In this document: positions 545 through 18,575 of the stretch, one piece after another
How the letters are laid out: each line of letters starts with the position of its first letter
Position numbering within the stretch: position 1 is the first letter of the stretch
Origin: a virus
Strand: one strand, 5' to 3'
Length of the DNA: 40,571 nucleotides
IMG/VR virus record: IMGVR_UViG_3300030329_005059
Span: 1 to 40,571 of that record
Made by a program: the position numbers and the translations under genes
Notes under the pieces: generated by a model
The model's database searches: none
Told to the model about the DNA's origin: nothing
The model's input: the letters and a program-made list of their open reading frames with translations, nothing else

Positions 545-550
545 TTGAGC

Positions 551-2271: not shown

Positions 2272-2272
2272 A

Positions 2273-4194: not shown

Positions 4195-4202
4195 AAAGCC
4201 TC

Positions 4203-4934: not shown

Positions 4935-4942
4935 TTTGTGTC

Positions 4943-5677: not shown

Positions 5678-5856
5678 TCGGCCTTCTCCATGTGTTCGTG
5701 TACTTGCTTCCAGAATGTCATGGCCGGATCTCCCTCTCCGCTGAGCTTTTCCTTAATGCCTTTGACATATGCAGCTGCCCGCTCTTTTCCATAGAGGTCC
5801 ATTAGTGCGGTTGCCCACTGTCTCGGGGTTGCTCTATCTATTGTCCGCGCTTCCAT
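5665..5856 (-). CDS. Hypothetical 63-residue protein
   Basis: A short protein with AGGAGA before ATG 5856. Sequence such as TPRQWATALMDLYGKERAAAYVKGIKEKL is compatible with a helical bundle. No family recognised. It overlaps the upstream gene by 23 nt and the downstream gene by 13 nt, which is strong support for real, coupled coding. Confidence 0.78.
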   Translation of the reverse strand: MEARTIDRATPRQWATALMDLYGKERAAAYVKGIKEKLSGEGDPAMTFWKQVHEHMEKAEWET

Positions 5857-6169
5857 TTTGTCTCCTGTGTTTCTCGGTCCGAAATAGCCAGTCCATGTAT
5901 TGAGGCATCAATTCTTTGTTTGGGTCGATGTTTGTCGGACAAACCTTTTTTCGACTGCCTCGGCGAGGGTTTATTGTTGTGATCTCTTCGATGATCTTGC
6001 ACGCCTGTTTGTTGTTGTAGCCGCCCCATTTGGCGAAGCCGAGCCCATCTGGTGGCCTTCCGGTAAACTCAAGCGTTTGGAATGCTCCCAGCAACATGAG
6101 CTTCCCCTTGAATGTCAATGCGAGCTCGCCGTTATCATCGATCATCATGTGTTCGGTTTTCAAAATCAT
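5834..6169 (-). CDS. Hypothetical protein, paralogue of the 8750-9160 gene
   Basis: A 111-residue protein starting at ATG 6169 after GAGGAG; a longer GTG reading would overrun the upstream gene and is less likely. It shares with the protein at 8750-9160 a helix and loop IIEEITTINPRRGSRKK (there MIEEITKINPRKGKRK) preceded by N-x-x-A/x-Q-like residues, and a following YMDWLF (there YLRWLF). The N-terminal halves differ more. The basic NPRxGxRK loop could contact nucleic acid. Function unknown. Confidence 0.82.
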   Translation of the reverse strand: MILKTEHMMIDDNGELALTFKGKLMLLGAFQTLEFTGRPPDGLGFAKWGGYNNKQACKIIEEITTINPRRGSRKKVCPTNIDPNKELMPQYMDWLFRTEKHRRQNGSADNR

Positions 6170-6171
6170 GG

Positions 6172-6360
6172 CTACTCCTCTAAAGTTGTGCCTGCTTCTC
6201 TTGGTTCCAAGTAGTACCTGCCTGTTTGTACCGACACTTCTCCCTGTACACACTCTGGCACCAGCCCGAACTTCACTAGGGCGTTCCAGCCGGCTTCACA
6301 AACGCCCTCGTCGTCATCGAGTAACGCGTCACATAGTTCTAGCTTTTGTTCCTTAGTCAT
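6172..6360 (-). CDS. Hypothetical acidic 62-residue protein
   Basis: A short acidic protein with a strong AGGAGGTG site before ATG 6360. It starts MTKEQKLELCDALLDDDEG and reads as a small helical domain. Its stop (TAG) is followed after 2 nt by the next start, and the GGAG serving that start lies in its last codons. No recognised family. Confidence 0.78.
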   Translation of the reverse strand: MTKEQKLELCDALLDDDEGVCEAGWNALVKFGLVPECVQGEVSVQTGRYYLEPREAGTTLEE

Positions 6361-6382
6361 TAGGCACCTCCTTGTTGTGGGC

Positions 6383-6703
6383 TTATGCCCGTTCTAGTGC
6401 TTCTATTCGCTTTTTAAGTGCTCTCATATCTTCGTCGAGGGCTTTCATCCTTATTTTCTGCATCAACTCATCGAAGGCGTTGAGTCCCGCCTGGCGGAGC
6501 CTGTAGAGGTGAAGTCGTTTGCTCTCTCTCATCCGCATGTCGTTCGTGTCGACTCTCTCGTTTATGGAGTCAATGACGTTGACCGCATATGCGTCGGCTG
6601 CATCGTCAATTCCGCGATAGTCACGCTCTAGTCGCGCGTCGTAGGTAGCGTCTGCGTTGCTTCTGCCGATTTCGCGTGCTTCTTCCAACGTCATTTCTTT
6701 CAT
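6383..6703 (-). CDS. Hypothetical helical protein
   Basis: A 106-residue protein. I place the start at 6703 (AAAGGG upstream), because a longer reading would run back through the preceding gene. It is highly charged and helical throughout, with a C-terminal heptad-like segment (DEDMRALKKRIEALERA) that probably forms a coiled coil. No domain recognised. Confidence 0.8.
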   Translation of the reverse strand: MKEMTLEEAREIGRSNADATYDARLERDYRGIDDAADAYAVNVIDSINERVDTNDMRMRESKRLHLYRLRQAGLNAFDELMQKIRMKALDEDMRALKKRIEALERA

Positions 6704-6716
6704 GCCCTTTCTCTTT

Positions 6717-6959
6717 TCAGTCGCTGTCGGCCCACTGGTCTGGACCCACGTTGATTGTGAGCTGATACCATCCAGGGTGGCTTTCTTGGTTTGGATGGGG
6801 AACAAAGCCAGTGGATGATTTTCTTAGGTGTTCCCTAATGGCTTCGTTAAGTGTTGGGTTGTGCTTTATGGCCGTCTTCAGATCTGGGTGCTCTTCCCCC
6901 AGGTCTACGAACGTGTGCTCGTGATAGAACCCGTCGTAACTTTCGATTATGACGTTCAT
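6717..6959 (-). CDS. Hypothetical 80-residue protein
   Basis: A small protein with GGGGAG about 9 nt before ATG 6959. It begins MNVIIESYDGFYHEHTF, suggesting a beta-rich fold, and ends with the acidic QWADSD. No family recognised. Spaced 13 nt before the next start. Confidence 0.78.
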   Translation of the reverse strand: MNVIIESYDGFYHEHTFVDLGEEHPDLKTAIKHNPTLNEAIREHLRKSSTGFVPHPNQESHPGWYQLTINVGPDQWADSD

Positions 6960-6962
6960 AAA

Positions 6963-7298
6963 TTATCTCCCCTTGTCGTGCCACTCGACTCTGTCCCATG
7001 ACAAGCCGCGTGCTTCGCATGGCTGGACTTCGTCGTTTTCGATGTAATTCGTTTTGACAATTTCTCGAGCGAGTTCTGAACAGTCTCCGTTGCAGGTTAC
7101 TGCGACCACTCCCCATGGATCTTCGCCAGACCTAAACTCGGTGACGATGGCTGTCGTCTGGTCCAGTACCTTTTGGCAGCATTTACAGAACATTTCTGAT
7201 GTCACCTGCAGCTTGATGCCAAGTCTCCTGATTGCGTCGTCCTTGTCCTCTTGGTCCCCTAACATCGCCTTCCCGATAAGTGCCTCGTAAGATTGCAT
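6963..7298 (-). CDS. Hypothetical Cys-rich (zinc-ribbon-like) protein
   Basis: A 111-residue protein starting at 7298 (AGAGAGGA upstream), 2 nt after the previous stop. It contains FCKCCQKVLD and, about 30 residues later, VTCNGDC, which together could form a four-cysteine zinc ribbon. The rest is acidic. No family recognised. Confidence 0.8.
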   Translation of the reverse strand: MQSYEALIGKAMLGDQEDKDDAIRRLGIKLQVTSEMFCKCCQKVLDQTTAIVTEFRSGEDPWGVVAVTCNGDCSELAREIVKTNYIENDEVQPCEARGLSWDRVEWHDKGR

Positions 7299-7300
7299 TT

Positions 7301-7639
7301 TCAGTCCTCTCTCTTGTTGTTGCCTGGGTAAAGCTTTGGCCATCCCCAGCTCCCATATCGCTTCAAGATGGACTTGATGAGCCTTTCTCTTCCCCATCCG
7401 TCAAGCTCAAACCATAGGTATAAGATTCCGTGTTTTGAGATCTTATCCATTTTCTCTTTCGCGTATTCCCCAGATGGTTCTCGCTCGTAAACGTCTCGGA
7501 AAATATCGGACACCCATATGTTGCTCTGATACCAGGCGAGGATTTGGATCAACCTGTCGGTTACGATTTCAACGTCAACCTCAGTCAACTTGTCGGTTAC
7601 GATTTCAACGTCAACCTCAGTCATCTCTCTTATATTCAT
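7301..7639 (-). CDS. Hypothetical protein with a 12-residue tandem duplication
   Basis: A 112-residue protein. ATG 7639 overlaps the previous stop as ATGA, with GGAGAT upstream. Its N-terminus carries TEVDVEIVTDKL followed directly by TEVDVEIVTDRL, encoded by a 36-bp tandem repeat (7549-7623) with a single base difference, so the duplication is recent. The C-terminal part is aromatic-rich (ILYLWFELDGWGRERL). No domain recognised. Confidence 0.82.
   Translation of the reverse strand: MNIREMTEVDVEIVTDKLTEVDVEIVTDRLIQILAWYQSNIWVSDIFRDVYEREPSGEYAKEKMDKISKHGILYLWFELDGWGRERLIKSILKRYGSWGWPKLYPGNNKRED
7549..7623. repeat. 36-bp tandem duplication within a gene
   Basis: Two copies in direct tandem at 36-bp spacing; positions 7549-7587 match 7585-7623 with one C/T difference (7554 versus 7590). 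The reading frame is kept, adding 12 residues to the host protein. Confidence 0.93.
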
Positions 7640-7914
7640 TTTGTGATCTCCGATTTGTGCAGTGCGTCGTCGAGGTTGATGCGGAGGGTTTTGGACTCAT
7701 ATTCTCCGTATCGGCCAACTAGCGATATGTTGATGTCGGTCTGGGCGTCGAGCGCGGTGTGCGGGTGTATTGAAATGAAGCAGCGGGTGACCAGGTCTCC
7801 GTCGTATATGTCGAGTCGGGCGGGTGTGTGGGCCCTGAAAGATCCTCTGTTTTCGCGTATGTGGCTGAGGTCTATTCGCAGCTCAGTCATCTTGCTCTTA
7901 TTTCTTTCTGCCAT
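7636..7914 (-). CDS. Hypothetical 92-residue protein
   Basis: Starts at ATG 7914 after AGGAG; an internal ATG at residue 9 is possible but has a weaker site. The sequence alternates beta-like segments (RCFISIHPHTAL, DINISLVGRYGEYESKTLRINL), compatible with a small beta-sandwich. No family recognised. It overlaps the upstream gene by 17 nt and the downstream gene by 4 nt. Confidence 0.8.
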   Translation of the reverse strand: MAERNKSKMTELRIDLSHIRENRGSFRAHTPARLDIYDGDLVTRCFISIHPHTALDAQTDINISLVGRYGEYESKTLRINLDDALHKSEITK

Positions 7915-8164
7915 GCTTGCTCCTTAGTGCCATCAGGCTGTGTGCCCTGATCACGATCTCCTTTAGCGCGGCCATGCTCTCCAGGCTCATGTGACTGAGG
8001 AATTTTTGCGGAAACTTGTCCTTCCCTATGGTTCGCACCGTAACGTCCATCAGATTGCCGTTCTCGGTGTTTAACTCGAAGCTGACGATCTGCTCCTCCC
8101 CAATTTGAACCTGGTCCCACAGCACCCCGTGAGAGTAGCTAAATGTCTTTCTCTTCTTTGCCAT
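7898..8164 (-). CDS. Hypothetical basic 88-residue protein
   Basis: Starts MAKKRKTF at 8164, immediately after the upstream TAG stop, with GGAG inside the upstream gene. Both ends are basic (MAKKRK, SKHGRKK), with a beta-like core (QIVSFELNTENGNLMDVTVRTIG). Could bind nucleic acid; no domain recognised. Confidence 0.8.
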   Translation of the reverse strand: MAKKRKTFSYSHGVLWDQVQIGEEQIVSFELNTENGNLMDVTVRTIGKDKFPQKFLSHMSLESMAALKEIVIRAHSLMALRSKHGRKK

Positions 8165-8518
8165 CTAATGCTCCATTACCGGCCCTTTAAAGTGCCTGTT
8201 CAGCTCAACAAAAGCGGTGAGCCCTTTTGATTCCAGATTGTCATCCCACTCGACCAGGCGTGGGTTGTAGATTCTGATGTCGCTCGTGATTAGTCCCGCC
8301 ACTATAGCCATCTCAAGGTATCGCTGCAGGAGCATGTGCCCTGCTTCTATTTGATTTTCGCCCATGAATGAGATCTTCCCATTGGCCATCAGAAGCGCCA
8401 TCCAAATAACTTCCTCTGATGTGAATGGGCTCGTAAAGCCACTCGTGTTTGTTCTCTTTTTCATTTCGACTGCGAGCCTGGGCACAATGTCCAGCCACGC
8501 CTTTGTTGTTTCGTTCAT
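8165..8518 (-). CDS. Hypothetical 117-residue protein
   Basis: Starts at ATG 8518 after AAGGA. Mostly helical, with a hydrophobic middle (IWMALLMANGKISFMG, YLEMAIVAGLI) that is not long enough to be a clear membrane segment. No family recognised. It is the first gene after a 231-nt leader holding a 15-bp inverted repeat. Confidence 0.8.
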   Translation of the reverse strand: MNETTKAWLDIVPRLAVEMKKRTNTSGFTSPFTSEEVIWMALLMANGKISFMGENQIEAGHMLLQRYLEMAIVAGLITSDIRIYNPRLVEWDDNLESKGLTAFVELNRHFKGPVMEH

Positions 8519-8749
8519 TTTGTTCCTTGCTTATTTAAAGCGACTGCCGAGGAGGGGGAGGTTTGCACAGAGGTCGACCCTAGGAACGTTAAACATGCGG
8601 TTGTACCTCCCCCTCCTCGCTTTGGCTTGATGTTGATTCATAAACGCCTATTTAACCTCTCTCGACCGTATATCTGCAGCTTCAGGTGTTGATCGGTCAG
8701 TGGCTAGCTTTGCGCTTATGTCTCATCGACATCAAGCCTGTGGTTCTTG
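8519..8749. promoter_or_regulatory. Intergenic leader with a 15-bp inverted repeat
   Basis: This 231-nt gap in the leftward unit contains a perfect 15-bp inverted repeat (8548-8562 and 8605-8619), purine on one arm and pyrimidine on the other (GAGGAGGGGGAGG), with a 42-nt loop. It lies about 30 nt before the start of the 8165-8518 gene. Arms this G/C-rich would form a stable hairpin in the leftward transcript. There is no T-run after it, so it is not a plain intrinsic terminator. A TTGACA overlaps the end of the upstream gene (minus strand, near 8750), but I see no good -10 at proper spacing. Confidence 0.6.
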
Positions 8750-9160
8750 TCAATTGTCATCTTGAGGCGGTTCCTCATAAATCATGTCATAGCTCCACGC
8801 GTCCTCTGGGAGCACTTTTTCGTAATACTCGAAGATGTTGTCTTCTTCGACGATTGAGAAAAGCCATCTCAGGTAATTCTCTGAGCCCGGTTCCATGTCC
8901 TTTGGCGCTGCGACCTTTCGCTTTCCTTTTCGAGGGTTAATCTTCGTGATTTCCTCAATCATGTTTGCAGCATCTTGATTTGACATTCCTTGGCACAATC
9001 TAAAGTCGTGGTATTTCGTCATCTGTAGGATAAAGAAGCACTGAATTAGCATTATGCTTCCGTACCCCGTCATCTCTACTCCGTATTTTTCGCCCTCGAT
9101 GTTGATTCGCATGTGCGGGCTGATTGTTACGTGCGCGAGTCTTGCTTCCATTAGGTCCAT
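8750..9160 (-). CDS. Hypothetical protein, paralogue of the 5834-6169 gene
   Basis: A 136-residue protein with GGGAG before ATG 9160. Residues about 60-105 match the 5834-6169 protein: SNQDAANMIEEITKINPRKG and the later YLRWLF. The C-terminus is a long acidic extension (DMIYEEPPQDDN) that the shorter paralogue lacks. The shared part looks like helix, basic loop, helix. Function unknown; duplication within the early region is visible from sequence. Confidence 0.85.
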   Translation of the reverse strand: MDLMEARLAHVTISPHMRINIEGEKYGVEMTGYGSIMLIQCFFILQMTKYHDFRLCQGMSNQDAANMIEEITKINPRKGKRKVAAPKDMEPGSENYLRWLFSIVEEDNIFEYYEKVLPEDAWSYDMIYEEPPQDDN

Positions 9161-9193
9161 TTTTTCTCCCGTGTTGGTGGGTGTATCGGTTCA

Positions 9194-9221
9194 GGGGCTG
9201 TCTCCCCGCCCCGTTGGGGGC
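9194..9221 (-). promoter_or_regulatory. Leader hairpins before the 8750-9160 gene
   Basis: Two short G/C hairpins lie in the 5' leader: GGGG/CCCC at 9194-9197/9204-9207 and a 5-bp stem with a four-base loop at 9208-9221 (GCCCC-GTTG-GGGGC on the plus strand). They sit about 35 nt before the ribosome site and match the pattern of hairpin leaders seen before other genes in this block. Confidence 0.5.
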
Positions 9222-9233
9222 AATGGCCTGGTG

Positions 9234-9653
9234 TCAGTCGACCCCGGCCCACTGCACCCATGCGGCGGTTTCGTTCTCCGTCTTGGTTTCGTGGTGGTCT
9301 ACGCGTTCCGGCTCCCGTGCTGTTGCAACGTCCCGCGTGGTGCTCCTGTGCGCTCGGTAGTGCAGTCCCTCTTGATGCCGCAGCTGCTCGATCTTGTGCT
9401 CTACGCTCGCTCGTTTCATCCAGTCGAGTTTTTCGTCGTCCAGTTTTTCGATGCCGTTTTCGATTTGGTGGTGGTGGTGCAGTGTTGTGTGGTCGCGATA
9501 TTTCGCAATCGCGTGCTTGTAGCTGTCGTCTGCTGCCACCATGGGGGTTCCGCTTCGCGTGAGCGTGGTTGCTTCAATAGGCAACGCCTCTTCACGTAGC
9601 GGCGCGTCTTCGTCGTAGCTGTTTATTCGCGCTCTCTTGTCAACCCAAGACAT
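9234..9653 (-). CDS. Hypothetical His-rich, charged protein
   Basis: A 139-residue protein. The start at 9653 (MSWVDKRARIN) was chosen because AAAGGAG lies 5 nt upstream. It is very charged, with a run of four His (TTLHHHHQIENG) and further His residues, and is probably largely helical or disordered. No family recognised. A stable hairpin precedes its ribosome site. Confidence 0.78.
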   Translation of the reverse strand: MSWVDKRARINSYDEDAPLREEALPIEATTLTRSGTPMVAADDSYKHAIAKYRDHTTLHHHHQIENGIEKLDDEKLDWMKRASVEHKIEQLRHQEGLHYRAHRSTTRDVATAREPERVDHHETKTENETAAWVQWAGVD

Positions 9654-9669
9654 GTGCTCTCCTTTAAGG

Positions 9670-9707
9670 CTCAAGGGGCCGCCGACTTCTGCCGACGACC
9701 CCTTGAG
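9670..9707 (-). promoter_or_regulatory. Leader hairpin before the 9234-9653 gene
   Basis: A perfect 9-bp inverted repeat (CTCAAGGGG 9670-9678 with CCCCTTGAG 9699-9707) lies between two leftward genes. On the minus strand it ends just before the AAAGGAG ribosome site at about 9660. There is no following U-run in the leftward direction, so mRNA protection, processing or translational control fits better than termination. Confidence 0.6.
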
Positions 9708-9715
9708 GTTGGTGT

Positions 9716-10174
9716 TTACGCCAGGTTCGCCCAGCTTTCGTCGTTGTTCGTCACGTTCGTTGCTTCAAAGGCGGCTTTCGCGTCTTGTCGCAATTTCGTG
9801 AGCGCACGCGCTGCTGGTCGTCGATTTTGCCAAGGCTTGGTCAGATCTTCGTACCAAGTCAGCCACAGGTTGAGACGCATGCGCATCTTCGTCACCTCCT
9901 CAGCCCTCTCTGGGTCGTACTCGCGAATGATGTACGCGGCAAGAGTTCCTGCGTCGATCGCCCAAGAATTCGACTTGTTGTCGTGAACCATTGGAGAGAC
10001 TGTGGCAAGAGTCCCCGCGACCCTCAGCACGTCCCGCTCTTTAGGTCGCTGCTTCTTTGTCAGAGGATTTCCTGTGATCTCCTCTCTAGTCTTGTTTGCG
10101 TCAAACAGGTGCGTAAGTGTCGTGATCAAGTCCTTTCGGATTTTGTTTTCTTTTTCAAAATTGTAATTACTCAT
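9716..10174 (-). CDS. Hypothetical helical protein
   Basis: A 152-residue protein starting MSNYNFEKEN at 10174 with AGGAGAG upstream. It is helical and charged, with a segment NSWAIDAGTLAAYIIREYDPERAEEVTKM and a Trp-rich helix (LNLWLTWYEDLTKPWQNRR). No domain recognised. Preceded by the largest leader hairpin of the block. Confidence 0.82.
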   Translation of the reverse strand: MSNYNFEKENKIRKDLITTLTHLFDANKTREEITGNPLTKKQRPKERDVLRVAGTLATVSPMVHDNKSNSWAIDAGTLAAYIIREYDPERAEEVTKMRMRLNLWLTWYEDLTKPWQNRRPAARALTKLRQDAKAAFEATNVTNNDESWANLA

Positions 10175-10188
10175 GAAACTCTCCTGAT

Positions 10189-10254
10189 GTTTTTCCAATG
10201 TCCGAGGGCGACGCCCTCAAAGAGGGCGGGCGTCGACCGAGGCATTGGAAAAAC
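10189..10254 (-). promoter_or_regulatory. Long leader hairpin with alternative inner pairings
   Basis: A perfect 12-bp inverted repeat (GTTTTTCCAATG 10189-10200 with CATTGGAAAAAC 10243-10254) encloses three segments: GAGGGC 10204-10209, GCCCTC 10213-10218 and GAGGGC 10222-10227. The middle one can pair with either neighbour, so two exclusive folds exist inside the outer stem. On the minus strand it ends just before the AGGAGAG site of the 9716-10174 gene and overlaps the 3' end of the 10217-10381 gene. A run of five U follows the lower arm only on the plus strand; on the minus strand the outer stem ends in A's. Confidence 0.65.
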
Positions 10255-10381
10255 TCGGTGAGTTTCTGTAATTCCTAGGCACCCTTCTCAGTCTCCTGCT
10301 TTCTCGTATATAGGTTATCGAGAATACTAGCCCCGCTAGACATGCAAGTACGTTGAGTGTGTTCAAAATCGCTATACACAT
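10217..10381 (-). CDS. Small single-pass membrane protein
   Basis: A 54-residue protein starting MCIAILNTLNVL at 10381. A strong AAGGAGGAGA site lies in the last codons (Arg-Arg-Arg) of the upstream gene. Residues about 2-24 form one hydrophobic segment, followed by a basic tail (RESRRLRRVPRNYR), so the C-terminus should face the cytoplasm. Function unknown; small early membrane proteins in phages often target host envelope or exclusion functions. Confidence 0.75.
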   Translation of the reverse strand: MCIAILNTLNVLACLAGLVFSITYIRESRRLRRVPRNYRNSPSFSNASVDARPL

Positions 10382-10383
10382 TA

Positions 10384-10728
10384 CTATCTCCTCCTTGTTG
10401 TTATCCTGATGCCCTTTATTCGCATCGAGTTCTCTGGCTCCCACCAACGCACTCCGTATGAACGGTTCTCTGGGTGAGGTCCATGCACCGCCGCCCACCT
10501 GTCCCCTACTCGCGCAAAGTTTGAGTAGGTTCCTGATAAAGTCTCGGCTGGTGCTGTGATTACGCCTTCGTGATATGCACTGTGCGTATCCAAGGCTCTG
10601 GCTATGTCACTGCCCTCGGCGTGGTGCCTCGGTGTGCAGTAACAGGTTGCGCAAATGCGAGGCGCTGCGTATTTGTCCGCCGCGTGGTTGCATTTGTTTC
10701 CGCAATAACGGCATTTCCATTCGGTCAT
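10384..10728 (-). CDS. Small zinc-finger-like protein
   Basis: A 114-residue protein starting MTEWKCRYCGNKC at 10728 with AAGGAGGG upstream. Cysteines CRYCGNKC and CATCYC about 20 residues later form a plausible zinc site, with nearby His residues. The C-terminal half (VGDRWAAVHGPHPENRSYGVRWWEP) is aromatic. It ends with Arg codons that double as the next gene's ribosome site. Confidence 0.8.
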   Translation of the reverse strand: MTEWKCRYCGNKCNHAADKYAAPRICATCYCTPRHHAEGSDIARALDTHSAYHEGVITAPAETLSGTYSNFARVGDRWAAVHGPHPENRSYGVRWWEPENSMRIKGIRITTRRR

Positions 10729-10749
10729 GTTGCCCTCCTTGGGCGTTGT

Positions 10750-10780
10750 GGGGGACGCCAACACCGTGTTGACGCCCCCC
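10750..10780 (-). promoter_or_regulatory. Leader hairpin, copy A (before the 10384-10728 gene)
   Basis: A near-perfect hairpin: G-run 10750-10754 pairs with C-run 10776-10780, CG 10756-10757 pairs with CG 10773-10774, and CAACA 10759-10763 pairs with TGTTG 10767-10771. It is the same sequence as the hairpin at 11015-11043 apart from one base. It lies just upstream of the AAGGAGGG ribosome site. Confidence 0.65.
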
Positions 10781-10789
10781 GGTTGTTGT

Positions 10790-10993
10790 TTAGATGTAGT
10801 CCACGATGTCGTAGGTGCGGTGCAGCCAACGCTTGTATGCGTAGGCGTCCAACGCTCCCGCGCTATCGTCCAGCCTTTCGTCGTCGATGAACGCACCGTC
10901 GGGGTGGCCCTCCGGCGTGAATTCGGCGTCGATGTTGTCGCTGAAGATGTCCTCTAAGATCTGGTTGTAGTCCATGGCGTCGTATTTGCTCAT
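10790..10993 (-). CDS. Very acidic small protein
   Basis: A 67-residue protein starting MSKYDAMDYNQ at 10993 with AAGGAGG upstream. It has 17 Asp/Glu against about 5 Lys/Arg, spread along the chain (EDIFSDNIDAEF, FIDDERLDDSAG). Small acidic early phage proteins include DNA mimics that block restriction or nucleoid proteins; that role here is only inferred from charge and position. Confidence 0.78.
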   Translation of the reverse strand: MSKYDAMDYNQILEDIFSDNIDAEFTPEGHPDGAFIDDERLDDSAGALDAYAYKRWLHRTYDIVDYI

Positions 10994-11014
10994 GATGTCC
11001 TCCTTAACGTGCGA

Positions 11015-11043
11015 GGGGACGCCAACACCGCGTTGACGCCCCC
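11015..11043 (-). promoter_or_regulatory. Leader hairpin, copy B (before the 10790-10993 gene)
   Basis: The same 29-nt hairpin as at 10751-10779, 264 bp away, with one base changed (C at 11031 for T at 10767) that only enlarges the loop. The G/C stem GGGG/CCCC and the CAAC/GTTG stem are kept. It again lies just upstream of a strong ribosome site. Confidence 0.65.
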
Positions 11044-11061
11044 TTTGCACGGCTTGTTTTG

Positions 11062-11493
11062 CTATACGCGGGTGGTTTCTTTGGTCAGTGAATTGAAAAC
11101 GATGACCGGCTTGCCAAACTTCTTCATCTCCTTGATGAGATGAAAGGTCCCGCCTGACTTGCCGTCCCACAGGCAGACGCCAATGTCTGCGATAAGTGCG
11201 ATCTTGCGGTTCCTGGTGAAGAGTGCCTGCTTGCCGGCTCGATCCCAGTCCGCTCGCATCTCGACGACCGGAAGCCTGGATCGCGTCGCCACCTGTCGGC
11301 CAACAGCCTCACCGCCTCGCTGACCGCCGTCGATCAAGCACATAATCGGGCCGATCGCCTTCAGCTGCTTTAGAACCCAACCGCGCGTTGCATCAGTCTC
11401 TGGAACGCAACGACTGCCGAATACTACGACGCGTGATCGTTGCTTCACCTTGGTGTTCTGCGTTGTCTTTTTCACTGTGTTAACCTTCTTCAT
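11062..11493 (-). CDS. SLOG-superfamily (DUF2493/YspA-like) protein
   Basis: A 143-residue protein starting MKKVNTVKKTT at 11493 with GGAGG 6 nt upstream; an in-frame upstream ATG at 11559 lacks a site. After a basic N-terminus it shows the Rossmann-like pattern of DUF2493: VVVFGSR, then IDGGQRGGEAVGRQVA, then RNRKIALIADIGVCLWDGKSGGT and a final strand PVIVFNS. SLOG proteins bind nucleotides or nucleotide-derived signals; phage versions are widespread with undefined roles. It is the first gene of the leftward unit, behind a structured leader. Confidence 0.85.
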   Translation of the reverse strand: MKKVNTVKKTTQNTKVKQRSRVVVFGSRCVPETDATRGWVLKQLKAIGPIMCLIDGGQRGGEAVGRQVATRSRLPVVEMRADWDRAGKQALFTRNRKIALIADIGVCLWDGKSGGTFHLIKEMKKFGKPVIVFNSLTKETTRV

Positions 11494-11576
11494 TGTAACC
11501 TCCGAGAGGAGTTGTTTTCGACGCCGCGCACTGTGCTCGACGTTCTCTCTCCTCTTCATGGGTCGATTGCTCACGG

Positions 11577-11686
11577 CTGGCGGCTGGGTCCAGCCGTTTC
11601 TGACGCCTTGGCGGCCCTGGGCCACTGCGTTCTGAACGCGGTGGTGCAGGGGTTCACCAGAAACTGCTTGACGCAATAGCCGCCAG
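11577..11686 (-). ncRNA. Structured RNA element, copy 1 (candidate leader RNA)
   Basis: Helices visible in the sequence: outer stem CTGGCGGCT 11577-11585 with AGCCGCCAG 11678-11686; P2 GTTTCTG 11596-11602 with CAGAAAC 11658-11664; P3 hairpin CGC-CTTG-GCG 11604-11613; P4 CCCTG 11615-11619 with CAGGG 11647-11651; and a 10-bp hairpin 11622-11631/11635-11644. The segments 11588-11609 and 11647-11673 are identical to those of copy 2, while the rest differs but still pairs. I assign the minus strand because the element lies 83 nt upstream of the leftward SLOG start, and copy 2 has a similar place before its own gene. The fold would also form on the other strand. No known family matched by eye. Confidence 0.6.
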
Positions 11687-11748
11687 ACGGGTGCAGAGAG
11701 GCCCAATAGAAGAGAGAGAGAGATTCGTAGTCGTGGCCCGCGCCATGC

Positions 11749-11781
11749 CTGATCATAAGCGCGAAGCGCGCTGATCATAAG
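11749..11781. promoter_or_regulatory. Direct repeats, possible operator
   Basis: CTGATCATAAG occurs at 11749-11759 and 11771-11781, 22 bp apart (about two helical turns), each holding the palindrome TGATCA. Between them lies CGCGAAGCGCG. On the minus strand each repeat contains TATGAT, a near -10 hexamer, so they may be part of a leftward promoter or operators for the HTH protein encoded 170 bp away. Both are inference. Confidence 0.5.
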
Positions 11782-11904
11782 GCTGGCGCATAAAGGACTC
11801 GACGGGTACCTGCGCCGACGATCCGCAATCAGACTGGGGGGCACGGGGGGGTGGCAAGCCCCCTCCGCTTATTTAGCTAGCCGTTCCTCGCGCGCGCGGA
11901 TACC

Positions 11905-11934
11905 TTGACACTATGGCAGTACAGAACACAGACT
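11905..11934 (+). promoter_or_regulatory. Possible promoter for the HTH gene
   Basis: A consensus -35 TTGACA at 11905-11910 lies about 45 nt before the HTH gene start. At 17-18 bp spacing the -10 would be CAGACT or a shifted version, a poor match. Support is therefore mostly the -35 and the position. Confidence 0.35.
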
Positions 11935-11953
11935 AAACGAATGGAGGTGTTCG

Positions 11954-12463
11954 ATGGGAAGACCCGTTAAGCACATTGAAGTACCCTCGGGGGACATAGA
12001 CGAACTCACTGACATGCTCGACGACCCTCGTCTAACCGAGCGCATGAAAGTACGTTTCCGCATCGTGCTGCTAAAGGCTGACTACTTGAGCCACAGCAAG
12101 ATCGCCGCACAGCTAGGCACCAACAGGCAATCCGTTATTAAGTGGGTAAAGCGTTACGAGGAAGGTGGCATACCAGCACTTCAAGACGACCGCGCCGGTA
12201 AGGGAGGACCACTAGGTAGACGCCGCGTCAGACGCTCGCTCAAAGCTACGGCTGACAAGCTACTGTCCTCGAACCGATCACTAACCCATGAAGACATTGA
12301 ACGGCTCGTGCTTACTCAGCTTCGCGAGGAGCCGGACGACGAACCAGGGCAGCCATATGCCACACACAGCAAGGTCAAGGTGCAACTGCTCAACGTCCTA
12401 GCAGACGTCGTCAAGAGCAAGGCGGGTGGAGACAGCATAGAGGACCTACTCGCGTCACTGTAA
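11954..12463 (+). CDS. HTH DNA-binding protein (IS630-like N-terminal fold)
   Basis: A 169-residue protein with an excellent GGAGGTG site before ATG 11954. Residues about 25-85 form a homeodomain-like HTH (RMKVRFRIVLLKADYLSHSK, then IAAQLGTNRQSVIKWVKRYE, then EGGIPALQDDRAGKGGP), the arrangement found at the N-terminus of IS630/Tc1-type transposases and in related regulators. No DDE catalytic domain follows; the C-terminal half is a basic stretch and charged helices. It is the only rightward gene left of the late unit and sits between the two structured elements, so I infer a phage regulator or origin-binding protein rather than a transposase. Confidence 0.85.
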   Translation: MGRPVKHIEVPSGDIDELTDMLDDPRLTERMKVRFRIVLLKADYLSHSKIAAQLGTNRQSVIKWVKRYEEGGIPALQDDRAGKGGPLGRRRVRRSLKATADKLLSSNRSLTHEDIERLVLTQLREEPDDEPGQPYATHSKVKVQLLNVLADVVKSKAGGDSIEDLLASL

Positions 12464-12512
12464 CCGCTAGCAGATATCGATGAAGGACGCCAGCGAGTCC
12501 GACGAGCTGTCC

Positions 12513-12531
12513 ACTTTCGCGAGACGAAAGT
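12513..12531 (+). terminator. Hairpin after the HTH gene (possible terminator)
   Basis: A 7-bp hairpin (ACTTTCG 12513-12519, loop CGAGA, CGAAAGT 12525-12531) lies 50 nt past the HTH stop. A second small hairpin, CAGC-GTTT-GCTG, follows near 12540-12555. There is no T-run, so intrinsic termination is uncertain. Confidence 0.3.
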
Positions 12532-12569
12532 CGAGCCGCCAGCGTTTGCTGACGACTCGACGTTCGTTG

Positions 12570-12779
12570 TTAGTATGGCCAGTTGGGTGCGGCGAGTTGG
12601 CCGTTCTGGTGTCGTGGCCGGCTGTCGCGTGGCCGGTAGTAGGCTTGTCTGGCTCGCTCGCGCTGCCCTTCCCTGACTAGGGCGTTGAAGCAGCTTCGCT
12701 TGCTACAGACTATCTTACTCGGCATGGTGTGGTCGTCTCCGCATATTGTGCAGGTTTTTACGTTCTGAATGTTCGTCAT
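12570..12779 (-). CDS. Small zinc-finger-like protein in the control region
   Basis: A 69-residue protein starting MTNIQNVKTCTICG at 12779; GGAGAG lies 8 nt upstream, which favours it over an ATG 15 nt earlier. It has CTIC near the N-terminus and CSKRSC about 15 residues later, followed by a basic tail (REGQRERARQAYYRPRDSR). This looks like a small zinc-stabilised nucleic-acid-binding protein. It is a lone leftward gene behind the second structured element, which makes it a candidate target of that element. Confidence 0.7.
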   Translation of the reverse strand: MTNIQNVKTCTICGDDHTMPSKIVCSKRSCFNALVREGQRERARQAYYRPRDSRPRHQNGQLAAPNWPY

Positions 12780-12827
12780 TTGTTGACTCTCCATTGAAGG
12801 TTACGAATGAAACTGTCCCTGAGCCTT

Positions 12828-12959
12828 CACGTGTTCCTTGGCGAGGGCGCAGCCCGAAGTCCAGCCGTTTCTGACGCCTTTAGGCGGTCCTGTGCCGCCG
12901 TGCCCTGGCGCGGCGGTTCAGGGGTTCACCAGAAACTGCTTGACGTGGCAAGGTGCGTG
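12828..12959 (-). ncRNA. Structured RNA element, copy 2 (candidate leader RNA)
   Basis: Same design as copy 1. Outer stem CACG 12828-12831 plus CCTTG 12836-12840 pairs with CAAGG 12949-12953 plus CGTG 12956-12959, unrelated in sequence to the copy 1 outer stem. P2 GTTTCTG 12867-12873 pairs with CAGAAAC 12930-12936. P3 is CGCC-TTTA-GGCG 12875-12886. P4 is TCCTG 12888-12892 with CAGGG 12919-12923, one C-G of copy 1 becoming U-G. The inner hairpin is CCGCCGTGC 12895-12903 with GCGCGGCGG 12908-12916. Segments 12859-12880 and 12919-12945 are identical to copy 1. It ends 48 nt upstream of the leftward zinc-finger gene. Confidence 0.6.
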
Positions 12960-12993
12960 ATATGGTTAGGACAGTTTTAGAAGATAGGTGCAG

Positions 12994-13075
12994 AGCACAC
13001 AAAATGATGCCTAATAATGGAAGAGTGCGAAGCACACAAAATGATGCCTAATAATGGAAGAGTGCGAAGCACGCC
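12994..13075. repeat. 37-bp tandem repeats
   Basis: Two exact 37-bp copies (12994-13030 and 13031-13067) containing AATGATGCCTAATAATGG, followed by the first bases of a third copy (AGCAC). A weaker related stretch (AGATAGGTGCAGAGCAC) precedes them. No spacers, so this is not CRISPR. It could be an iteron or protein-binding array. Confidence 0.85.
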
Positions 13076-13232
13076 TTAGACACTAATGAAGGAAGTCAGT
13101 GAGCCTGCGAACTGTCCGCTCGTATTATCCCAGGTAACAAAAGCCGGAACGACCCCCCCCTACCAAATAACCTATACGAACCTAGATTCTGGGGTATCTC
13201 GTTTTCAACTAGCCTACTAATCGATACTACGT

Positions 13233-13490
13233 GGGCACCCATATCCAGACGGGCACATAGCGGGCACATAACGGGCACTTTTCGGGCACTTCGCAAAAAA
13301 TCAACTACCCATTATTACTGTCTTTTTTGCCCAAACGGGCACTTGGGCACTTAGATGTAGGGTTAACGTCTATCGTGCGCGCGCGCTATCTGCTCAAAGT
13401 AGGCTTTTATGTGCCCAAGTGCCCGTTTTTCGATTAGCGGCCTTTCAGTGTTGCGTTTAGGTTCGGGCACTTTGTGTTCTTTAAGTGCCC
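13233..13490. promoter_or_regulatory. GGGCAC/GTGCCC hexamer array (candidate origin or operator)
   Basis: Ten copies of one hexamer in 258 bp: GGGCAC at 13233, 13251, 13262, 13273, 13284, 13337, 13345 and 13465; GTGCCC at 13411, 13419 and 13485 in the opposite direction (eleven counting both orientations and paired sites). Those at 13251-13284 are spaced exactly 11 bp, so they lie on one face of the helix. An AT-rich stretch follows. Phased binding sites plus AT-rich DNA and inverted repeats are the usual make-up of an iteron-type origin or a major operator; which one cannot be told here. Confidence 0.6.
13333..13428. repeat. 18-bp perfect inverted repeat
   Basis: AAACGGGCACTTGGGCAC (13333-13350) and its exact reverse complement (13411-13428), each arm holding two hexamers 8 bp apart. 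The 60-nt interior contains an alternating GTGCGCGCGCGC tract near 13375-13386. Confidence 0.92.
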
Positions 13491-13493
13491 GAA
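13462..13493. repeat. 11-bp inverted repeat before the late genes
   Basis: TTCGGGCACTT (13462-13472) and AAGTGCCCGAA (13483-13493) with a 10-nt loop. It lies about 60 nt upstream of the first late gene, so it may be an operator or a leader hairpin of the rightward unit. Confidence 0.85.
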
Positions 13494-13551
13494 TCAGTCT
13501 GGGTGCTTCCTGGCCCTTGTCAACAACGGTACATCTGTCTATCTTCGACCC

Positions 13552-14133
13552 ATGGACAAACTTGAACTTAATTCGGAATCAGTCCCACCAGCTCCTCTTC
13601 TTGAGGCGGTGTTGATGGGCGCTTTGGATAGTGTTGTTGGCGTTGTTGAGGCTCTTCGCAATAAGCCCGATAGTTTGACGTTTTCGCAGAATGTCGCTGC
13701 TGGCTATTGGATTTGTCGCAATGAGTTCTCTTGGTCGGAGCATTTAAAGAAGCATAATCGTGCTGTATTTAATTCTCGGCATCGTTCGGTTGTTGATGCG
13801 ATCTATTTTTTCATGGATTCGCTTCGTGAGGATGATTTGACTCATCCCAAGGGCACCGAGCTTCATGGTGGGTTCATTTCGGCTGGCCCTGTTGAGGGTG
13901 AGGATGATCCACGCGCCAGCCGGTTCGTTGGCTTGTTGCTCGATTTCGTTGCGGCGTACCATTTTCTGTTTCACTATGACTGTAAACCTGCGGAGCGCGG
14001 GAAGGTGCTTCGGCTGTTTATGTCTGGCGACTTATCCGAACATCAGGATTGGTTGACTGAGCTTGCGGGGCGAATTGAAAGAAGGAAACCAAAAAGACGC
14101 TCTGATAAGAGAGCTGCGGCGGTGCAAGTCTGA
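13552..14133 (+). CDS. Probable small terminase subunit (by position)
   Basis: A 193-residue reading from ATG 13552 (MDKLELNSES); there is no clear ribosome site there, and ATG 13615 with GAGG 8 nt upstream is a real alternative. The protein is helical, with NVAAGYWICRNEFSWSEHLKKH and a basic C-terminus (GRIERRKPKRRSDKRAA). I recognise no family directly. It directly precedes and overlaps TerL by 71 nt, the usual place of TerS, and the basic tail would suit DNA binding. Function is inference from context. Confidence 0.8.
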   Translation: MDKLELNSESVPPAPLLEAVLMGALDSVVGVVEALRNKPDSLTFSQNVAAGYWICRNEFSWSEHLKKHNRAVFNSRHRSVVDAIYFFMDSLREDDLTHPKGTELHGGFISAGPVEGEDDPRASRFVGLLLDFVAAYHFLFHYDCKPAERGKVLRLFMSGDLSEHQDWLTELAGRIERRKPKRRSDKRAAAVQV

Positions 14134-15733
14134 TTTTTGGCATTTTTGCGAGAATTACTTGCAAATTGTTGCCAAGACTCAGGACGAGTCGGGCAGTTAT
14201 CTGGTCAAGTTGCGCGCCAATCGTGCTCAGAAGCATATAATTGGCGCTCTCGTTCGCGGCAATCGCGCTTATGTGCTTAAGGCTCGTAAGTTGGGTGCTT
14301 CAACCATTGTTGCGGCGTATTTTTTCTGGCGGGTGCTGTTCACTCCCCACTTTAAGGTCTTGGTTGTCGCCCATAAGCGTGTTGCGGCCAAGGAGATTTT
14401 CCAGATTTACTCGAGATTTTACTCTAATCTGCCGAGCTGGCTGAAGTTCAGTACGGAAGCTGCGAGTACGGAGATGTTGCGCTTCCGTCATGGTGGGGTG
14501 ATTCAGTGTACGACGAGTAGTTCGGATGATGCGCGTGGCGGAACGCCTCACGCGCTTCATTTGTCGGAATTTGCTCACTATGGAGATCTAAATAACACGT
14601 TCGCGAGTATTATGAACTCGGTGCCAGATTCCGCGACGGTTGTCCGCGAGACGACTGCCAATGGCCTGAATCTCGCGCATAAGTTGTGGCTTGAGAACGA
14701 TGGTTTTGAGAAGGTTTTTATCCCTTGGACCTGGGATGTGAACTATGTGACGAAGGAAAAACCTCGCAGTAAGCCGCCGGCTTGGTTTAGGAAGTATTCT
14801 TCTGACCATAATTTGACCCGCGACCAGAAATGGTGGGCATATAAGAACTGGAAGGAGAAGCAGGGCGGTAATTGGGATTTGTTCAATCAGGAGAACCCAA
14901 TTACTCCCGAGGTGGCGTTTATCACGTCTGGTGGGCGGTTTTTCCAGGTTCATTTCGCTGGTTTTCGCATTACTCGAGATAATGTTCATAATTATCTTGG
15001 CTATAAGGAGTTTGAGGCTCCTAAAAAGCATCGTATTTATGTTACTGGTGTTGATAGTGCGAATGGCGATCCGAATGGCGATTTGAGTGCTTTTTGCACG
15101 ATGGATGTTACAGATCCAAAGAAGCCCTCAATTGTCTCTAGCTACTATAATTGGATGCCATTGAGGCCTTTTTCAGAGATTGTCGATGAGCAGGTAGAGC
15201 GGTATGGGTCGCTGGCGGTTGTTGAGACGCCCGCTGGCACTGTGATTACCGAGCTGCTGGCGGAGCGTGGTCGACATCTTTATCGTCGTGTTCAGCATGA
15301 TAAGTTCAAGGGTCGATGGACTGAGAAGCTTGGTTTTAATACGAATAAGTCCACTAGAGATTTACTTTTGAGCCGTCTGCATACTGTTGTCGAGAGTCGG
15401 GCTCTTGAGGTTCCGTGCGCCAGGTTGAAGGCCGAGATCAATACGTTTGTGTTCAAGAAGGGTAAGCCGCAGGCTGAGACGGGCGATCATGATGATATGA
15501 TTTTTGCCGCAGCTCTCGCTCTTGCGGGCCGCACCCAGGTGGCTGAGGTTGAGCGCGAAGTTTCTCGTCGCAGACCAACCTCTGTGCGCGATGTTTTGAT
15601 TTTTGAACAGCAGAGTGGAAAGCTTTTTGAGGATGCTGTTTCCGAGGGTTATTTTGGCGACGACTCTGAAGATAATGAGCTTTCTTCTACTATTGGTGAA
15701 TTTGATGTCTTGCAAGCTTGGTCCGAATTGTGA
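14063..15733 (+). CDS. Terminase large subunit (packaging ATPase-nuclease)
   Basis: About 556 residues. The ATPase part has a variant Walker A KARKLGAST (73-81) and HLSEF (Glu169) as the Walker B/catalytic region. The nuclease part has TGVDSANGD (D331) and GDHDDMIFAAALAL (474-487), the acidic cluster of the RNase H-like terminase nuclease. The start is uncertain: TTG 14063 gives the longest frame, and no ATG or good ribosome site lies before the conserved part, so translation may be coupled to the overlapping upstream gene. It drives DNA translocation into the prohead and cuts the concatemer. Confidence 0.93.
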   Translation: MRGELKEGNQKDALIRELRRCKSDFWHFCENYLQIVAKTQDESGSYLVKLRANRAQKHIIGALVRGNRAYVLKARKLGASTIVAAYFFWRVLFTPHFKVLVVAHKRVAAKEIFQIYSRFYSNLPSWLKFSTEAASTEMLRFRHGGVIQCTTSSSDDARGGTPHALHLSEFAHYGDLNNTFASIMNSVPDSATVVRETTANGLNLAHKLWLENDGFEKVFIPWTWDVNYVTKEKPRSKPPAWFRKYSSDHNLTRDQKWWAYKNWKEKQGGNWDLFNQENPITPEVAFITSGGRFFQVHFAGFRITRDNVHNYLGYKEFEAPKKHRIYVTGVDSANGDPNGDLSAFCTMDVTDPKKPSIVSSYYNWMPLRPFSEIVDEQVERYGSLAVVETPAGTVITELLAERGRHLYRRVQHDKFKGRWTEKLGFNTNKSTRDLLLSRLHTVVESRALEVPCARLKAEINTFVFKKGKPQAETGDHDDMIFAAALALAGRTQVAEVEREVSRRRPTSVRDVLIFEQQSGKLFEDAVSEGYFGDDSEDNELSSTIGEFDVLQAWSEL

Positions 15734-15759
15734 GAGATTCCTTGTTGTTGGAGGTTTGA

Positions 15760-16488
15760 ATGTCTTTGTTAAGTCCAGAAAAAATGGCTGAGGCCGTCGA
15801 GATGGCTGAGTCCATGGCTCCTGATGGTGAAGTTCAATCCGAAGATGCGGTCGAGGCTATGGATGGCGACTCGGCTGTTTCTGATGAAGAGGCTGTTTCT
15901 GATGAAGAGGCTGTTTCTGATGAAGAGGTTGAGGCCTCTTCTGAGGAGCATGTTTCTGATGAGGAGGCTTCTTCTGATGAAGATGTGGGGGCGGAATCTG
16001 CTCTGTCCGATGAAGACCAGGCTTGGCTTGATAGGTACATGGCCGAGCAGTCTGAATCGTCTGAAGAGTCTGGGTTTGAGGAAAGGTCTGAGTTTGAGGT
16101 GCTGCGAGATCGGATTGCTCATTTGGAGCGGGACCGCGCTGTTGCCCTTGCTGAGAAGAAGCTTGTTTCTGAGATTAAAGAGGCTTCCAAGCGTTTTCCT
16201 ACAGTTTCTACTGAAGATATGATTTCTGCTGTCCAATCTAATCCACAAATCAATGTCGATGCTTGGGCTGCTCGTGAGTCAAAGCGCATTGCTTCTGTTG
16301 AGTCTCGCATTGAGGCCCGACTTCGCAAGGAGTTGAAGCTTGAAAAGTCCAAGAGGGCTGGCGAGCTTTCTCCTCCTCGGGGAAATAAGGCCAAGACTGC
16401 GGGCAAGGCATCTAAGAGGAAGCTTGGCTCGGTTGCTGAGGCTACTCGTGCTTTGCGTGGCGATTTGCTGTCTGGGAAATTCGGCTAA
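15760..16488 (+). CDS. Scaffolding protein
   Basis: A 242-residue, very acidic N-terminal half followed by coiled-coil helices (FEVLRDRIAHLERDRAVALA) and a basic C-terminal third ending in a helix. GGAGG precedes ATG 15760. This composition, with a basic C-terminal coat-binding segment and a place just before the coat gene, is typical of phage scaffolds. The N-terminus carries AVSDEE three times in tandem plus degenerate copies (HVSDEE, ASSDED). Confidence 0.85.
   Translation: MSLLSPEKMAEAVEMAESMAPDGEVQSEDAVEAMDGDSAVSDEEAVSDEEAVSDEEVEASSEEHVSDEEASSDEDVGAESALSDEDQAWLDRYMAEQSESSEESGFEERSEFEVLRDRIAHLERDRAVALAEKKLVSEIKEASKRFPTVSTEDMISAVQSNPQINVDAWAARESKRIASVESRIEARLRKELKLEKSKRAGELSPPRGNKAKTAGKASKRKLGSVAEATRALRGDLLSGKFG
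15874..15927. repeat. 18-bp tandem repeats in the scaffold gene
   Basis: GCTGTTTCTGATGAAGAG three times in tandem (starts at 15874, 15892, 15910), coding AVSDEE. Degenerate copies follow to about 15985. Copy number is likely to vary between isolates by slippage. Confidence 0.93.
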
Positions 16489-16509
16489 TATATAATATAG
16501 GAGGCCTTT

Positions 16510-17970
16510 ATGGTCGCTTTACTTACTAGCAATAGCATCCAAGCGATGCTGCATGAATATTATCGGGGTCCGGTTGCAGAGCAACTGAACCAAGAGGTTT
16601 TGGCTGTTGAGCTTTTTGAGAAGGGTTCTTTCACTTGGGCTGGCAAAAACGTGATTATTCCGCTCCATACCGGACGCAATACTGGCGTTGGGTATCGTGC
16701 TGAGAATACCAATCTTCCCACTGCGACTGCGCAGGTCCATAGTCGGATCGTGTCGAACGCGACTTTCTTGTATGGTCGGTTCGAGGTTACTGGTCCTACG
16801 ATGGCTTCTGCTGAGAAGGGTGGGATGAATAGCTTCATCGGAGCTCTCGACAATGAGATGACTCGTCTGGTCGACGACTTGAAAGACCATGCGAATCTGA
16901 ACATGTTTGTCGGTGGTCCGGTTCGTGGCCTCATCAATCAGAAGCAGGCGCAGGTGGCGAAGGCAAATGGGGCGACTCAATATGGTGCTCCTGGTCAACA
17001 GGTCGCCAATAGTAATGGCTTGGCTTGGCAGTACGATGGTGACTTTAGCTTCATTGATGGGACTTGGCGTGATGCGACTGGCACTTTGCGTCCTGCGGTA
17101 GATCCCAACGATATCCAGACCTGGTGTCGTATTGACATCATTCAGTTGGATACCTATGAGGTTGTTCCTCTGCTTGCCGCTTTGGGTGCTGGCGCTGGCA
17201 TCTTCATTACTGACTTCAGCAAGTCGAACAGGACCATTACTATCCAGGGCGTTGGCTCTGGTGGTGCTGTTGTTCCGTTCACTACTGCTGGTGGTGCTGT
17301 CGATGCAGGTGTTGGTTGTGCGATCAAGATCAATGATCAGCAGCTTACCAATGGTGTTGGTAACTTTGGCATTCCTGGCCCGAACACCGATCATGAGCCT
17401 GCTGGCATTTTGACCAACTTGTTTGACGGCTCTTTGTTCAATTTGCCTCGGAATAATGGCGCGGCTGATGGCGGTGAGGAGCTGCAGTCGACCTGTGCGA
17501 CCGCGGTTGTCACCGGTGCCAATGATCGTGCTGCGCTTGTCAATGATCGTCTTCAGGCAATGCTGGATACGATCGACGAGGAGTGCGGGAAGGTTCCTGA
17601 TTTGTTCCTGATTCATAACACGACGCGTCAGACTTATATTTCTGGCACGTTGTCGAATCAGACTATTCAGCAGACCGCTCCTGCTACCAAGGCTACTGGC
17701 GTCGATTACGGCTATAACGATGATATGATCGGTTATGGCGGTATCAAGATGCGACGTAGTCGTCATTGTCCGAAGGGTATGTTTATTGCCCTGAAGCTTG
17801 ATAGTTGGAAGTTGGCCGAGCTGAAGGCTGGCGATTTTGCCGATCTCGATGGCGCGATTCTGTCGCGTGTTGATCAGCGAGATAGTTGGGAAGGCTTCTG
17901 GCGCTGGTATTACCAGCTCGTTTGCTGCTATCCCAACGCAAACGGCGTCCTGTTCGGCTTCAATCTTTAG
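16510..17970 (+). CDS. Major capsid protein (HK97-like)
   Basis: A 486-residue protein with a strong AGGAGG site before ATG 16510. It starts with a helical N-terminus (QAMLHEYYRGPVAEQLNQE), followed by GKNVIIPLHTGRNTGVGYRAE and TFLYGRFEVTGPTMASAEKG, the pattern of HK97-fold coat proteins of short-tailed phages that use a separate scaffold. Position after the scaffold and before an intrinsic terminator fits the most highly expressed gene. The fold is inferred from pattern, not from alignment. Confidence 0.9.
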   Translation: MVALLTSNSIQAMLHEYYRGPVAEQLNQEVLAVELFEKGSFTWAGKNVIIPLHTGRNTGVGYRAENTNLPTATAQVHSRIVSNATFLYGRFEVTGPTMASAEKGGMNSFIGALDNEMTRLVDDLKDHANLNMFVGGPVRGLINQKQAQVAKANGATQYGAPGQQVANSNGLAWQYDGDFSFIDGTWRDATGTLRPAVDPNDIQTWCRIDIIQLDTYEVVPLLAALGAGAGIFITDFSKSNRTITIQGVGSGGAVVPFTTAGGAVDAGVGCAIKINDQQLTNGVGNFGIPGPNTDHEPAGILTNLFDGSLFNLPRNNGAADGGEELQSTCATAVVTGANDRAALVNDRLQAMLDTIDEECGKVPDLFLIHNTTRQTYISGTLSNQTIQQTAPATKATGVDYGYNDDMIGYGGIKMRRSRHCPKGMFIALKLDSWKLAELKAGDFADLDGAILSRVDQRDSWEGFWRWYYQLVCCYPNANGVLFGFNL

Positions 17971-17992
17971 AAGCTTGTTTTAATGGGTGATG

Positions 17993-18031
17993 TGCCCCGG
18001 CTGATGTATTGTCAGCCGGGGCATATCTTTT
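17993..18031 (+). terminator. Intrinsic terminator after the coat gene
   Basis: A perfect 12-bp stem (TGCCCCGGCTGA 17993-18004 and TCAGCCGGGGCA 18012-18023) with a 7-nt loop, followed by TATCTTTT. As there is no promoter visible after it, it is probably leaky, lowering the level of transcripts for the downstream genes relative to the coat gene. Confidence 0.85.
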
Positions 18032-18043
18032 GCGGGGGTGTTT

Positions 18044-18247
18044 ATGGACTGGAGTTGGCAGGTTTTAATTGTTGTTTTGGCGCTCACTGTTGTGCATTTG
18101 AACTTTTGGGTTGGTCGTTGGGTTTGGTTTCGATTGAGTTTTATTGAAGATAGGTCCATTATGTTTCCAGTTGACGATGTGCCTTATGGTGATCCGACTT
18201 TTGGCGAGTTAGATCCTGAAATTTCGGAGTTGATTGGCGATGATTAG
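18044..18247 (+). CDS. Small membrane protein
   Basis: A 67-residue protein from ATG 18044 (GGGGG upstream; a GTG two codons earlier is an alternative). Residues 3-32 are strongly hydrophobic and Trp-rich (WQVLIVVLALTVVHLNFWVG), so it is a one-pass membrane protein with an acidic tail (PEISELIGDD). Its place between coat and portal is unusual for a membrane protein; function unknown. Confidence 0.75.
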   Translation: MDWSWQVLIVVLALTVVHLNFWVGRWVWFRLSFIEDRSIMFPVDDVPYGDPTFGELDPEISELIGDD

Positions 18248-18575
18248 TTCTCGTGCCCGTGCCGCCAACCGATTGAGCGGCCTTCTTGCTGCCAAGCGCC
18301 GTCTAGAGCCTTCTGATGATGGCTTTGATCTTGGTGATTTGGCTACCGGTGCCGCAGCTGTCACTGGCACTGTTGCCTCTGGAGGCAATCCTGTTGTCGG
18401 CCTCAAGGCCGCTGCTTTGACTAGAGTTGCCGGCGATCTTCTGGGTGGCGACTCCCCCTCTGGCCGCCTTGATTCAGTCATTCTTTCTAAGGCTGCTGAT
18501 GATCCTTATAAAAGGATGTATGAGGGTGCTGGGGCTTGGCTTTCCAAGCGGTTCCCTTCTTCAGGCGGTGTCTAA
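18240..18575 (+). CDS. Hypothetical Ala/Gly-rich protein before the portal
   Basis: A 111-residue protein from ATG 18240, overlapping the preceding gene by 8 nt. The N-terminus is basic (ISSRARAANRLSGLLAAKRR), the middle is rich in Gly and Ala (DLATGAAAVTGTVASGGNP), and the end is FPSSGGV. Its stop overlaps the portal start as TAATG. Could be a minor virion component; no family recognised. Confidence 0.75.
   Translation: MISSRARAANRLSGLLAAKRRLEPSDDGFDLGDLATGAAAVTGTVASGGNPVVGLKAAALTRVAGDLLGGDSPSGRLDSVILSKAADDPYKRMYEGAGAWLSKRFPSSGGV

Follow-up and report, generated by a model that had tools for sequence, protein, structure and literature searches.

Two copies of a structured element flank the HTH gene of a phage, and long hairpins occupy the equivalent slot of three relatives

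What does a phage gain from a branched hairpin that it carries twice, once on each side of the same gene? The question is raised by an HTH_23 gene (IS630-like HTH, 169 aa; 11954–12463, + strand) in the IMG/VR virus record IMGVR_UViG_3300030329_005059, of which the whole 40,571-nt stretch, here called the window, was analysed. The original prediction took the two flanking copies for a selected RNA fold, a view that is backed by thermodynamics, by intact helices and by long hairpins in the equivalent slot of three relatives. We propose that the two-copy element probably acts as RNA, in regulation or in processing.

Direct comparison bears out the two exact identities first noticed, 22 nt at 11588–11609 and 12859–12880, and a second stretch at 11647–11673 and 12919–12945, which sits within a 37-nt repeat of 95% identity. 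On the + strand, the core of copy 1 occupies 11588–11673 (86 nt) and that of copy 2 occupies 12859–12945 (87 nt). The sequence between the identical ends had been said to differ widely; this was overstated, as the cores, interiors included, can be aligned end to end; the 94 columns contain two short indels besides 16 substitutions. Because these mid-core indels shift the reading frame between the copies, a protein-coding origin of the similarity is ruled out.

Folding each core alone, as had been suggested with the original prediction, gives one shared structure. On the + strand, copy 1 reaches −48.6 kcal/mol (z −5.6) and copy 2 −50.3 kcal/mol (z −5.1), and in neither case was any of 200 shuffles as stable. 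The base of the fold, P1/P2, is a 13-bp stem with two C·U mismatches that is the same in both copies (GUC-C-AGC-C-GUUUCUG paired with CAGAAAC-U-GCU-U-GAC). It opens into a three-way junction in which one A, one G and the strand GUUCAC (11652–11657 in copy 1, 12924–12929 in copy 2) are unpaired and which bears a short P3 (11604–11613 and 12875–12886) and a long P4 (11615–11651 and 12888–12923). In P4, a G·G or U·U 1x1 mismatch precedes a G·U pair. The two copies are the two lowest-energy 140-nt segments of the whole + strand; in a sliding fold scan, comparably strong folds are uncommon, yet not unique.

All 32 core pairs are held in both copies: 27 are invariant, two are changed on both sides and three are changed via G-U. 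The pairs of P1, P2 and P3 do not vary, and the differences fall in P4, where five of 15 pairs differ, two of them on both sides (A-U/G-C and U-A/C-G) and three as C-G/U·G. Thus, the seven substitutions in paired columns of this larger hairpin break no pair. The inner hairpin had been described as having mostly different pairs, which goes too far, since among the ten alignable pairs of the upper helix six are the same, two doubly changed and two singly changed. Seven transitions distributed randomly over the P4 pairs leave all pairs intact in ~5% of trials, or in 0.02–0.03% if substitutions of any kind are allowed; a letter-shuffling control, with two sequences, attains the observed covariation in 115 of 500 cases. 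Because no core homologue turned up, covariation is limited to two sequences, and we take the pairing kept between the copies as evidence of moderate strength for the fold. The invariance of P1/P2 alone is no evidence for pairing; with P4 changing alongside, it suggests that the sequence is recognised or else that the module was copied recently.

The element is larger than first thought, with predicted pairing out to 11535–11731 (~197 nt) in copy 1 and ~12804–12983 (~180 nt) in copy 2, + strand in both. In copy 1 the core stands on a long imperfect outer stem with arms at 11535–11586 and 11674–11731, a duplex matched by none of 1000 shuffles and worth −61.8 kcal/mol, where the best of the unrelated places sampled reached −45. 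The outer stem of copy 2 is shorter and bulged, has a small hairpin branching off its side (12845–12855) and is equalled by 20 of 1000 shuffles on the + strand and by 113 of 1000 on the − strand. The earlier claim of an outer stem that pairs with no sequence common to the copies therefore stands for copy 1 and is weaker for copy 2. Between-copy identity starts and ends exactly at the P1 base, and the flanking stems are unrelated in sequence.

Both copies adjoin the starts of leftward genes. Copy 1 neighbours a SLOG (YAcAr) gene (11062–11493, − strand), which is without a match in the nearest relative, and copy 2 a small Cys-rich, zinc-finger-like ORF (12570–12794, − strand); neither gene has a tblastn match in any relative examined. 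Downstream of copy 1, at 11844–11867, the + strand has a weak hairpin resembling a terminator. Copy 2 has no rightward gene nearby. A 193-aa ORF (13552–14133, + strand), directly 5′ of the terminase large subunit gene, opens the long rightward late operon. Between the HTH gene and this operon, at 13249–13491, are six copies of CGGGCACTT in both orientations (0.36 expected), less than 0.3 kb from copy 2. A 35-nt block of the region is shared unchanged with the nearest relative, and the repeats are probable replication-origin iterons.

Is the fold a property of this genome or of its lineage? A terminase search gave L003 as the nearest relative (TerL 82% and HTH protein 88% identical), and L067, L068 and L069, at 44–46% over TerL, came from a further search with the best-conserved segment of terminase. 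The slot was defined as the intergenic stretch that separates the leftward genes from the HTH_23 gene upstream of terminase. The sequence of L068 ends before it, and the comparison comprises the window, L003, L067 and L069. The HTH domain call in L067 falls just below the curated cut-off, and the L067 and L069 HTH proteins match each other by blastp, but the window HTH protein has no such match to that of L067; hence, equivalence of the slots rests on gene order and domain. Strong structure is predicted for the slot 5′ of the HTH gene in all four phages (0/100 shuffles each, + strand). As in the window, the HTH gene of L003 borders a long hairpin, and the slots of L003, L067 and L069 hold hairpins of 128–288 nt with z from −4.6 to −9.1. 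New here are these highly significant long hairpins in the equivalent slot of three relatives, without detectable sequence similarity; the core is absent from all three. In sliding scans of the window, L063 and L069, the slot hairpins rank among the top scores, as does a hairpin that follows the capsid gene; the slot of L067 ranked lower (−2.5). Two L069 stretches that otherwise score highly, 1905–2090 and 3222–3400, have z of only about −2.4.

The apex of the L003 hairpin was considered as a homologue of the core, given a by-eye likeness between GUUUUCUG and CAGACAAAC and a weak 8.0-bit model match. Homology is not claimed, because alignment against shuffles never gave a value below p 0.06. 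No core homologue was found in other phages by pattern, blastn or covariance model, and no further copy of the core occurs in the genome or in any collection searched. Exact and gapped patterns, either the 22-nt pattern or a P2-free pattern, had no match in IMG/VR, and 36 matches there to a P2 pattern have folds unlike the element. Genome contigs of GTDB gave 17 pattern matches, against roughly 14 expected by chance, none with the fold. In phage and plasmid records, blastn found no match covering the core; a single plasmid match that looks intergenic, from Polaromonas (75% over 72 nt), has neither P2 strand, and a transposase gene lies ~2 kb from it. The original statement that no named RNA family fits agrees with Rfam 15, in which nothing in the window exceeds the gathering threshold and 11400–13100 gives only chance-level matches. 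ARAGORN detects neither tRNA nor tmRNA.

From these results we tentatively propose that each copy is a cis-acting structured RNA, in which a sequence-specific head is borne on a stem kept for pairing and not for sequence. The head would consist of the 13-bp stem and the three-way junction with its GUUCAC strand, and the stem maintained for pairing would be the outer one. Acting as RNA and read rightward, copy 1 would lead toward the HTH gene and copy 2 toward the late operon. The head may be bound by a factor, most likely host RNA polymerase, in a put-like antitermination, or a double-strand RNase, e.g., RNase III. In the RNase III option, cleavage would part the HTH message from its neighbours.

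The choice of strand bears on a second, rather doubtful, explanation, namely that the hairpins belong to the 5′ UTRs of leftward early transcripts and govern how the first gene is translated or how its message is processed or kept stable. A riboswitch-like leader on the minus strand had in fact been the original suggestion. Its positional part holds: the distances of 83 and 48 nt from the copies to the leftward start codons are correct, all five hairpins lie within ~200 nt (about 7–190) upstream of a leftward start codon, copy 2 is close to a leftward gene with no rightward gene near, and the base of the L003 hairpin takes in a GGAG upstream of a leftward start. Fold energies and the direction of G-U changes, however, do not favour it. 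Full-length z is −8.0 on the + strand and −6.2 on the − strand for copy 1, and −6.1 and −3.8, respectively, for copy 2. The three one-sided P4 changes, G·U on the + strand, would be A·C mismatches on the − strand, where two and three core pairs turn A-C in the two copies and both folds are weaker. In L067, moreover, a possible leftward promoter, seen by eye, lies between the hairpin and the gene. It is therefore suggested by the fold energies and by the direction of the one-sided P4 changes that the + strand is favoured over the −; position suits a leftward leader just as well. Raw G-U counts are weakened as proof of strand because the composition of the + strand alone yields more G·U, as its shuffles show. 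Because both strands of the slot hairpins in L003, L067 and L069 fold about equally well, RNA action and strand are unproven. No clear + strand promoter was found in the window upstream of either copy, and no sigma-70 promoter supports either direction; the sigma-70 consensus may not be the host's.

It is unlikely, in our estimate, that the element works as DNA, its inverted repeats serving as cruciforms, folded single strands or paired protein sites in replication, packaging or divergent promoter control. A candidate for binding it would be the HTH protein. Inverted repeats give a strong fold on both strands in all the relatives, the probable origin lies within 0.3 kb of copy 2, and short repeated motifs can be seen by eye in the L067 and L069 hairpins. 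However, a DNA operator would not need paired changes within the 15-bp P4 helix, and L003 has the origin block in common with the window but no hairpin sequence. A common site for the near-identical HTH proteins is not seen, because L003, with its 88% identical protein, has no hairpin sequence in common; the two upstream slots share no word of at least 11 nt except CTCGCGCGCGCGGA, which adjoins the HTH gene.

Even less probable is a trans-acting small RNA made from each copy, e.g., one serving as a decoy for a host RNA-binding protein or defence system, or regulating it. The compact, very stable fold, the invariant head in two copies and the weak terminator-like hairpin after copy 1 would suit such an RNA, but a promoter was not found, and the long variable stems and the fixed genomic slot suggest action in cis. 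Equally improbable is a mobile or gene-converted 86-nt hairpin module placed at the tips of two pre-existing stems, its identity reflecting recent copying and not function: the limits of identity at the P1 base and the flanking stems without common sequence would fit, but no target-site duplication was seen, there is no further copy in the genome or the collections searched and no transposase partner, and P4 pairing is kept.

How does the proposed cis-acting RNA compare with known systems? The closest in idea is put of phage HK022, which suppresses termination in cis by binding the zinc-binding domain of RNA polymerase. The put RNAs, putL and putR, are two related copies near transcript starts, each with adjacent stem-loops, that act in cis on RNA polymerase (PMC9378689). 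They are ~70 nt long, with two stem-loops and no enclosing helix (PMC9378689). The present element is likewise a phage structured RNA, as predicted, in two related copies with two neighbouring stem-loops, but P3 and P4 are enclosed by the 13-bp P1/P2 stem and a long outer stem. Against HK022 (NC_002166, 27000–40000), a record in which the place of put was not established, the best match of the core model scored 9.5 bits (E 2.3), which is not significant.

Processing hairpins of the T7 type, cut by RNase III, are stable irregular intergenic duplexes beside phage genes. In their predicted folds, both copies and the hairpins of the relatives are similarly long irregular duplexes between cistrons, a likeness that is not specific to this class. 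Unlike T7 sites, the element has a two-hairpin head of invariant sequence; the stretches of T7 that were folded for comparison fell short of it in length and in stability, and the core model had no match in T7 1–20000. Riboswitch-type leaders resemble it in their three-way junction, in an unpaired strand that is conserved and in distal helices that vary. They differ in that the element has no Rfam match, a leftward leader would require the weaker strand, and the flanking genes are not the same for the two copies. We therefore file the element under none of put, RNase III sites, riboswitch leaders or an Rfam family.

To our knowledge, few structured RNA controls of phage transcription are known outside model phages. 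It would be bold, and we consider it unlikely, to see here a new class of phage cis-regulatory RNA, with a recognised three-way-junction head on a freely evolving paired stem, kept in one slot beside the HTH gene across the lineage and duplicated in this genome with an accessory gene. Since homology searches miss a fold that stays in place while its sequence is not conserved, position together with folding could uncover more such elements. The proposal also supplies a specific, testable point of control in a lineage of phages to which no close relative was present among the annotated phage records searched.

Several minor features were observed. At L003:1216–1405, 5′ of the HTH gene, a different two-hairpin motif occurs twice around a CGGGGUG linker, with seemingly compensatory changes. 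On the 3′ side of the HTH gene there are tandem repeats, in the window at 12994–13072 (37-nt unit, 2.1 copies) and in L003 at 1994–2170 (about eight units of ~20 nt, AGCTGCCTGAAC...); both are candidate binding or packaging sites. A 29-nt hairpin repeat (97%) lies just 5′ of two leftward genes, at 10751–10779 and 11015–11043; the one position at which its copies differ still pairs, as G-U, on the minus strand, in contrast to the two-copy element. A strong hairpin at 17985–18031 follows the capsid gene, and L063, L067 and L069 likewise have a strong fold near the end of that gene. It is probably a conserved terminator. Finally, an acidic ORF precedes the capsid gene at 15853–15983, where 18-nt tandem repeats encode EEAVSD-type units.
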